A stretch of DNA of 37,135 bases from Paracoccaceae bacterium. GTDB lineage: Bacteria > Pseudomonadota > Alphaproteobacteria > Rhodobacterales > Rhodobacteraceae. The translations under genes and the position numbers were made by a program. Each line of letters begins with the position of its first letter. Position 1 is the stretch's first letter. The notes under the pieces are model-generated. The model made no database searches. It saw nothing but the letters and a program-made list of their open reading frames with translations, and was not told the origin of the DNA. Of the stretch, positions 19,334 through 21,239 are shown one piece after another. The DNA is taken from the NCBI GenBank assembly GCA_029242355.1, contig JAQWUC010000003.1:1-37135 (forward strand), given 5' to 3'.

Positions 19334-19828
19334 CCCACTAAAATACTTATTATAGGGAGAAAATTACTGAAAAATATAGATGTATTTGATCGAAAAATTT
19401 TAAGAATCATTCAAAAAAATGGGAGAATATCAAATTCTGATTTAGCAGATGAAGTTGGTTTATCGACATCAGCATGCCATAGGCGCCTGCAACGTTTATT
19501 CGATGACTCGATTATTAGAGAAGTCGTTGCGTTGGTAAGCGAGAAGGCAATTAAATTAAATTTGACTGTTTTCGTTGAAATTAAACTTTTGCGGCAGGTC
19601 GATGAAGTCTTGGAAGAATTTGAACGAGCGGTATGTCTCATACCGGAAGTACTAGAGTGTAATTTAATGGCCGGTTCTGCAGATTATCTTCTTAAGGTTG
19701 TGGTTGGCGATGCTGAAGATTTTGAGCGAATTCATAGAAAATATCTTTCGAGATTACCAAACGTATCAAACATGATGTCAAGCTTTTCGCTTAGGAAGGT
19801 CTATAAGACTACAGCTTTACCCATTTAA
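19322..19828 (+). CDS. Lrp/AsnC family transcriptional regulator, likely controlling ald
   Basis: DNA-binding feast/famine regulator. The N-terminal winged helix-turn-helix is clear (DVFDRKILRIIQKNGRISNS, then DLADEVGLSTSACHRRLQRL), followed by the RAM ligand-sensing domain (FVEIKLLRQ, LECNLMAGSADYLLKVVV). It is divergent from ald. The start is uncertain. ATGs at 19301 and 19322 have no Shine-Dalgarno, overlap promoter-like hexamers and add an odd hydrophobic tail (KILIIGRKLL). The only good site, GGGAG at 19355-19359, lies seven to eight bases before a CTG at 19367. I give the downstream ATG as a conservative start. The stop shares TTAA with the convergent gene. Confidence 0.88.
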   Translation: MVYNPTKILIIGRKLLKNIDVFDRKILRIIQKNGRISNSDLADEVGLSTSACHRRLQRLFDDSIIREVVALVSEKAIKLNLTVFVEIKLLRQVDEVLEEFERAVCLIPEVLECNLMAGSADYLLKVVVGDAEDFERIHRKYLSRLPNVSNMMSSFSLRKVYKTTALPI

Positions 19829-20724
19829 AATATATCCGAAATTTGTCCGACTATTAGAAAAGCTTTTCCAGATCGGGTATCAGCAATTTTAAATATTTGA
19901 TGATCTTCTGCTGTTGCCAATTTCTCTCGAAGTAACTTGTCAAACCGTCTCATCAGCATTAAGGTCGTATCGCGAAAAACTGTATCTGATTTTGTTCTAC
20001 TTTTCAGTTTCTTAATATGTTCATCAATTCCAACACAACTGAGCCTTCGCACATAATGTTTTTTTTCCGGTTTAACAAAATTTAACCAAGCCTCTACAGA
20101 CGGAGAGTCAATCTTTAAGTCATCAAGGTAAATGCCATCTTGTGCTAATAAATTTAAGAAATCTTCGCTGACTTGTAACAACTGCAGGACAGTGTTGTTT
20201 TTACGCGCTATCTCAAGGGCAATGAATCCTTCAGAGTCGTTTTTATCATTTGGAAAATGTAAAGCTTTTAAAAGTATATCCCAGGATAAAAAATCAGTTT
20301 CTAAACTGCTTTTAGGCAGTTCTTGCGATTTTTCTTTTATATTAAGCTCTAATTGATCTTTTATCAAAATCTCCTCAGTTTCCACTTGATCTTCTGCAAT
20401 AATTGTAGCCAATGTTTCTTGGGTTTTATTTGCAAGTTTAATTTTGAATAACTTGTTGTCTAACTGATGCATCTGCAAAGAGATTTTCTCTATGGCTTTT
20501 TCAACTTTGTCCTGTCGATTGCGTAACCTATTGAGTGATAAATTCAGTTTTGAAATTGAAGTAATTAGGTCAAAAAATTTAAATGAGCCGACAACAGTAA
20601 GAATAATAAAAAGAAACTTCCATAATGTTGTAAGTTTAGGTTCTTCGAACCAAAAGTAATGCGCAATAGCGTAAGAGCAAAAAGAGAGTGCGATTAGAAT
20701 AAGAATTTTAAAATTTTTAGTAAT
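19825..20724 (-). CDS. Uncharacterised membrane-anchored coiled-coil protein
   Basis: The frame is open from 20739 to its stop at 19825, but has no ATG, GTG or TTG before a TTG at 20478. Translated from an ATT at 20724 it gives about 299 residues: a hydrophobic segment at about 5-26 (FKILILIALSFCSYAIAHYF), a second at about 31-52 (LTTLWKFLFIILTVVGSF), a charged coiled coil at about 55-100, then a conserved-looking domain (ALHFPNDKNDSEGFIALEIA, LLAQDGIYLDDL, VFRDTTLMLMRRFD, ADTRSGKAFLIVGQ). I recall similar proteins of unknown function in Rhodobacterales. It follows greA on the same strand. The start is unresolved: ATT initiation, or an unseen base error upstream. Confidence 0.7.
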   Translation of the reverse strand: MTKNFKILILIALSFCSYAIAHYFWFEEPKLTTLWKFLFIILTVVGSFKFFDLITSISKLNLSLNRLRNRQDKVEKAIEKISLQMHQLDNKLFKIKLANKTQETLATIIAEDQVETEEILIKDQLELNIKEKSQELPKSSLETDFLSWDILLKALHFPNDKNDSEGFIALEIARKNNTVLQLLQVSEDFLNLLAQDGIYLDDLKIDSPSVEAWLNFVKPEKKHYVRRLSCVGIDEHIKKLKSRTKSDTVFRDTTLMLMRRFDKLLREKLATAEDHQIFKIADTRSGKAFLIVGQISDIF

Positions 20725-20768
20725 GTTACTATGAATCCGTTAATTTGAAAATCTATGGGTCTCTTTTC

Positions 20769-21239
20769 TTAGAAATAATCAATTTTAAGTATTTCAAAAC
20801 TCCGGCGCCCTCCTGGGGTTGCTACTTCCACGCTATCGCCCTCTTCCTTTGAAATCAGCGCTCGCGCCAATGGCGAACGCATATTTAGAAGATTATTTTC
20901 GATATCAGCTTCTGCTTCGCCTACTATTTGATATGTCTTCTTTTCTTCTGTTTCTTCATCAATAAGATCTACTGTCGCTCCAAATTTTATAGGTCCCGAT
21001 AATTTGGAAACATTAATTACATCGGCCAAGGAAATTATTGACTCTAGTTCTTTAATTCGGCCTTCTATGAACGATTGTTTCTCCTTAGCAGCATGATATT
21101 CAGCATTTTCAGATAAATCACCATGTTCTCGGGCTTCGGCTATAGCTTTGATAATATTAGGGCGGTCAGAACTCTTTAACTGGCGTAGTTCCTCATTAAG
21201 TTTATCAAATCCTGCTTTTGTGAGTGGAATTTTATCCAT
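20769..21239 (-). CDS. greA: Transcription elongation factor GreA
   Basis: Rescues backtracked RNA polymerase by stimulating transcript cleavage through the secondary channel. The N-terminal coiled coil carries the acidic tip and signature [19 protein letters not shown], followed by [13 protein letters not shown]. The C-terminal FKBP-like domain contains [23 protein letters not shown] and SPLARALI. I start at the ATG at 21239 (156 residues, the family length, [14 protein letters not shown]). An in-frame TTG five codons upstream is not supported. It is divergent from ETF-QO and upstream of the membrane coiled-coil gene. Confidence 0.96.

Follow-up and report, generated by a model that had tools for sequence, protein, structure and literature searches.

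The gene that follows greA in this low-GC genus poses a simple question: where does its translation begin? The window, by which we mean the whole 37,135-nucleotide stretch analyzed, is contig 3 of the 1.73 Mb genome G000 (61% complete), and the GC content around the greA-linked gene is about 0.37. Directly after greA (20769–21239, ATG at 21239; this and all other window coordinates at the locus are on the minus strand) ORF reading of the window gave a frame open from 20739 to 19825, 304 codons plus a stop. The frame is bounded at its 5' end by an in-frame TAA (20740–20742), and its own stop is the TAA at 19827–19825. The earliest canonical codon in it is TTG 20478 (20476–20478), and our reading confirmed the statement of a first-pass annotation that the preceding 87 codons contain no ATG, GTG or TTG. 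That annotation proposed three ways out: initiation at an ATT (20724 or another), loss of the start through a base error, or a frame joined to something upstream after greA. The downstream neighbor is a convergent Lrp/AsnC-type regulator that shares a four-base overlap of 3' ends with the greA-linked gene.

The N-terminal third of the protein had been described as two hydrophobic segments plus a charged helix, and hydropathy analysis agreed, placing the segments at residues 12–30 and 42–60 of the open frame with a long charged helix behind them. The first (TM1, 20650–20706) is also a predicted helix in a low-confidence structural model, and the second (20560–20616) continues into the charged helix according to hydropathy, alignment and the model. 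The conserved C-terminal domain comprises residues 151–304 (19828–20289); an alignment of 28 sequences of the family has 22 invariant columns, all of them in the C-terminal half and within this domain. Searches of Pfam and NCBIfam with the window protein, its counterpart from a second species of the genus and one further family member gave nothing above the curated cut-offs. Two weak matches, eIF-5a for the window protein (E 0.0012) and CENP-H for the coiled-coil region of the congener (E 0.00032), were not accepted as homology. A profile search of the PDB returned five matches with E values of 0.05 to 0.45, the best being TatA. AlphaFold modeling from two sequences reached a mean pLDDT of 52.4 and a pTM of 0.23, and the model backs at most a first helix followed by a long second helix. 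Taken as a whole the architecture is suggestive of a protein anchored in the inner membrane, with its helix and domain in the cytosol.

Given the codon usage of the genes of this genome, the probability of finding no ATG, GTG or TTG in 86 codons is about 0.012, which is only mildly unusual. The gap counts as a finding because the conserved N-terminus falls entirely inside it. This conservation was seen upon comparison with one genus-mate (genome G001, locus L002), and the genus sample is these two genomes. The congener coding sequence (L002:1507–2400) encodes a protein 56% identical to that of the window; there too the frame, which opens behind the TGA at L002:1477, reaches TM1 without a canonical start, the TTG at 1546 and the ATG at 1564 both lying within that segment. 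Over the N-terminal 81 codons the two genes gave pS 0.687 and pN 0.357, a dN/dS of about 0.26, whereas over the remaining 215 codons pN was 0.22 and dS was saturated. Differences at codon positions 1, 2 and 3 numbered 35, 26 and 43 in the N-terminal stretch versus 67, 34 and 114 in the rest, and thus the third-position excess in the N-terminal stretch is modest. The other two frames across this stretch are interrupted by several stops in both genomes. The N-terminal conservation, the dN/dS value and the stops in the alternative frames together argue that the membrane segments belong to the coding sequence and are subject to selection. Judged from these comparisons the frame 20739–19825 is a real gene, and the earlier view that its N-terminal part codes beyond chance expectation is borne out, all the more as the membrane segments are also found in the family (see below). 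A search of contigs for further species returned one locus, apparently the congener itself (MAG isolate NAT185, PAHT02000033.1). The search for more homologues found none in viral contigs and, among plasmid records, turned up three distant relatives from Ruegeria and Tritonibacter.

The same comparison bears on the proposal that the start was lost to a base error, or that the gene is decaying. The genome of the window is incomplete, which could be taken to favor such a defect, but two different genomes carry the identical gap although their proteins are only 56% identical, which makes a base error very unlikely. The frames are also open to their ends in both species, and the purifying selection seen in the N-terminal stretch, with a still lower pN in the rest of the gene, argues against decay.

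We next consider the sequence between greA and the membrane segments. From 20768 to 20681 ATG, GTG and TTG are absent from all three frames of the strand, and the earliest canonical codon past greA in any frame is TTG 20680, which is out of frame and inside TM1. There is therefore no ordinary start in this interval from which a frameshift could lead into the frame, and the suggestion that the frame is joined to something upstream after greA is not supported. Read-through of the greA stop was also discarded as implausible on reasoning, as it would need an extra frame change after TAA 20742. The congener differs from the window in that it has a 13-codon leader ORF (L002:1464–1505), the ATG of which overlaps the greA stop (TAATG) and the TAA of which ends one base before the ATT discussed below. 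The window has no counterpart of this leader ATG. The congener ORF may be a relic of an ancestral leader or a coupling device. One could propose that it feeds the main frame by a +1 shift or by termination–reinitiation, the version in the window having decayed; the leader ATG and stop are directly visible in the congener sequence, and relatives commonly start close behind greA. However, with no canonical codon in any frame from greA to the middle of TM1 in the window, leader recoding is not the shared mechanism, and reinitiation in the congener would still employ the ATT, such that we regard recoding as very improbable.

As neither genus genome has a canonical codon ahead of TM1, the start must lie within a stretch of about 12–22 codons. 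For the congener alone, a shortened protein might in principle begin at TTG 1546 or ATG 1564, both inside TM1. In a gap-free alignment of the start region the window sequence AGT AAC ATT ACT AAA faces AAT AAT ATT CCA AAA in the congener, which pairs the ATT at 20722–20724 with the ATT at L002:1507–1509; this codon is present in both of the two genus genomes. Initiation there would give a coding sequence of 19825–20724 and a distance of 44 nt from the greA stop codon; the window protein of 299 residues would begin (M)TKNFKILILIALSF and its congener counterpart (M)PKNSIIFFLVLLLF. Counted from the ATT only 5 of the first 12 residues are identical. ATT is a common codon, 4.2% of all codons in this genome, and as the gap is known in only two genomes the single aligned ATT is possibly due to chance.

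Ribosome-binding calculations point both ways. The SD energy at ATT 20724 is −3.3 kcal/mol, which beats 48% of the reference set, the 345 first canonical starts in this genome, and the median is −3.9 for the 195 pairs having aligned first canonical starts; this yardstick is rough because the first canonical codon is sometimes other than the true start. The SD-like element is a weak GGA (20736–20738) in the run of open codons that separates the in-frame stop from the proposed start (20725–20739). Of the in-frame near-cognate codons in the window N-terminal region, 20724 alone reaches the ordinary range of SD energies. Those at 20736, 20706, 20700 and 20694 have energies of +0.4 to +2.1 and beat 11%, 1%, 1% and 1% of the reference starts, respectively. 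In the congener the value at ATT 1507 is −2.2 (better than 31%), and the SD at the ATT is weak in both genomes compared with the median. By computation the 70 bases spanning 20724 have less structure than those at roughly 77% of the first canonical starts. The aligned codons, and 20724 being the one near-cognate of the window stretch with an ordinary SD energy, agree with the initiation at ATT 20724 put forward by the first-pass annotation, and we conclude that the greA-linked membrane protein gene probably initiates at AUU 20724, a weak start of the infC/pcnB type that would keep the protein scarce.

Initiation could instead take place at a different near-cognate codon. ATT 20706 faces an ATC at L002:1525 and is therefore near-cognate in both genomes, and in the congener CTG 1492 has a slightly better SD (−2.7) than ATT 1507. 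However, at +2.0 ATT 20706 has no SD, and a start there would lose the lysines ahead of TM1, whereas the congener CTG faces CGG in the window. A start at one of these codons is unlikely on this evidence, and AUU 20724 is the start assumed in what follows.

The gene belongs to a family that is widespread in the Rhodobacteraceae, with homologues in 374 of 394 genomes at E ≤ 0.001, those of the window and the congener included. From the other 372 genomes we examined 50 further loci (L003–L052), a nonrandom set composed of 23 from a sample of relatives and 27 best-scoring new matches. Four, truncated by the end of a contig or locus, were excluded (one of these, L041, also has an ATG ahead of the segments) to leave 46 complete loci. 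Every one of the 46 has a canonical start upstream of the first membrane segment, usually an ATG roughly 15–35 residues ahead of it and commonly close behind greA. Two separate membrane segments are present in the window, the congener and 44 of the 46; the exceptions, L024 and L025, have long N-terminal extensions and showed just the first segment inside the scanned stretch. greA is directly upstream on the same strand in 44 complete loci as well as in the window and congener, whereas no greA was found within the stretch examined for L024 and L025. A representative relative is TM1040_RS04205 of Ruegeria sp. TM1040 (WP_011537354.1, 'hypothetical protein'), which is likewise next after greA on the same strand and alignable over the C-terminal two thirds. 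The genus studied here thus differs from the family loci in having neither a canonical start nor the longer N-terminal leader.

These orthologues also speak to another reading of the frame, in which the protein begins at TTG 20478 or ATG 20472, the earliest canonical starts available, and has no membrane segments. The first-pass annotation had named orthologues beginning at the position of 20478 and devoid of upstream membrane segments as the observation that would speak against its proposal, and what we found instead is that all 46 have a canonical start before the first segment. Moreover, neither TTG 20478 nor ATG 20472 is aligned with a start codon of the congener, and the 81 codons upstream are under purifying selection. 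We consider a start at either codon extremely unlikely.

As a control within the genus we compared 851,502 bases of G000 with 1,462,859 bases of G001. The G000 set came from 51 of its 75 contigs: the window in full, plus up to 20 kb from the start of each of the others. The G001 set drew on 61 of about 90 contigs, with up to 20 kb from the start of each of C1–C60, further stretches of nine of these and 200,000 bases of C69. When stop-to-stop frames were matched reciprocally, 772 best pairs resulted. Removal of overlaps reduced them to 453, of which 423 had at least 35% identity; a minimum of 80 aligned residues left 358, and discarding shadow frames left 345. Seven of the 345 pairs have at least 15 aligned residues ahead of the first canonical codon in both genomes. 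Five of these stretches overlap another ORF of at least 90 codons in G000, and the other two are the greA-linked gene and infC. In infC 53 residues precede the first canonical codon in both genomes, and the conserved part opens at an ATA behind AAAAGGA (G000:C5:3603, plus strand, L067; G001:C26, L139). infC was matched in 57 of 61 family genomes, and all 57 align from the ATA residue onward. By its sequence infC apparently starts at ATA in both genus genomes, and not at ATT, and its unprompted recovery is a positive control of the screen. Conserved N-terminal coding sequence with no ATG, GTG or TTG able to start it is found at the greA-linked locus in both the window and the congener, and there the near-cognate codon is kept in the genus only (two of two genomes), whereas in the wider family 46 of 46 complete loci have a canonical start before TM1.

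Further candidates surfaced under a weaker criterion than the 15-residue screen. A TupB-like ABC permease (G000:C33:7504, minus strand, L095; G001:C44, L157) has a conserved N-terminus lacking a canonical start in both species, and both copies have an ATT preceded by a good SD, AAAGGATAAGAA in one and TAGGAGTTAAAA in the other. The best match of the permease is NCBIfam ABC_perm1; position 4 of the TupB model aligns to permease residue 2 when read from the ATT, at a score under the cut-off. In a lipoprotein-like gene (G000:C51:1191, plus strand, L113) the first canonical codon, a TTG, is at the lipobox and an ATT lies behind AGGAG, whereas in the G001 copy a GTG directly follows the ATT. Going by its sequence the G000 gene likely starts at the ATT behind AGGAG. 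Both are weaker ATT candidates than the greA-linked gene. In the screen of pairs a further locus (G000:C46:2643–1867, minus strand; G001:C4:5729–4908) showed 12 and 14 conserved aligned residues ahead of its first canonical codon, and in G000 this stretch has no overlapping long ORF. In a tally of conserved identical codons ahead of first canonical starts, ATT was found at 18 sites, four with an SD in both genomes; the comparison codons gave 16 and 4 (AGA) and 53 and 3 (AAA). ATT showed no clear enrichment, which speaks against a general claim for the genus. Two of the four ATT sites simply precede a canonical start. A lineage-level change in which the genus uses AUN codons as fixed starts more widely than is assumed for bacteria (infC, the greA-linked gene, the TupB-like permease and the lipoprotein), perhaps caused by AT-biased drift of start codons together with relaxed IF3 checking, is conceivable, and we regard it as doubtful.

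Near-cognate starts of this type have precedents. E. coli infC and pcnB are reported to have AUU starts (PMC1780047, PMC13009471), and an AUU start was inferred for lepA in two bacteria (PMC1780047). In S. aureus starts were mapped to AUU for cvfC1 and to AUA for infC and ccpN; these near-cognate starts have extended SDs, and AUU and AUA reporters gave about 10–30% of the AUG output (PMC13009471). In L. monocytogenes six conserved genes carry fixed non-canonical starts, and infC (ATT) and rnhC (ATC) are cases with a near-cognate AUN codon, and in a Listeria reporter protein from ATT was the lowest among ATG, ATA and ATT (PMC13068326). N-terminomics of E. coli reported ATT sites in ribE (PMC13245402). 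The rarity of ATT starts stated by the first-pass annotation stands, whereas its view that they are otherwise known for infC was too narrow, as pcnB and others also have them and the infC of this genus apparently has ATA. As in genes of the infC/pcnB kind, a near-cognate AUN codon would open the coding sequence of the greA-linked gene and no usable canonical start is nearby. In contrast to S. aureus cvfC1, infC and ccpN the SD is weak here; the gene also differs from the AUN-start genes named in being a greA-linked membrane protein, and in that its start is proposed from sequence, whereas the E. coli, S. aureus and L. monocytogenes cases are reported as experimentally supported. Given the reported AUN-start genes, the greA-linked gene is probably a further case of a known, rare kind. 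Our literature searches found no report of such a start in this gene family or genus, and none on the greA-downstream membrane protein family.

A plausible course of events is that the ancestral canonical start and N-terminal leader were lost in this genus and that fMet-tRNA now initiates at AUU 20724, such that a short lysine-bearing N-terminus would precede segment 1. The weak GGA-type SD would position the ribosome in a leader computed to be AU-rich with little structure. By analogy with infC and pcnB, the AUU start would cap synthesis at a fraction of the AUG level and confer sensitivity to IF3. The gene would thus encode an inner-membrane protein of low abundance, its putative topology being an N-terminus inside, two membrane helices, a long helix and a cytosolic C-terminal domain.

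Fixed AUU starts are rare in bacterial genes, and gene finders that accept only ATG, GTG and TTG truncate such proteins. In the present case truncation at the first canonical start drops both membrane segments, and a membrane protein would look soluble. Comparison of two species within a genus detects such genes without experiments. If the TupB-like permease and lipoprotein cases are true, this genus would be well suited to the study of the frequency and causes of start-codon drift away from AUG.
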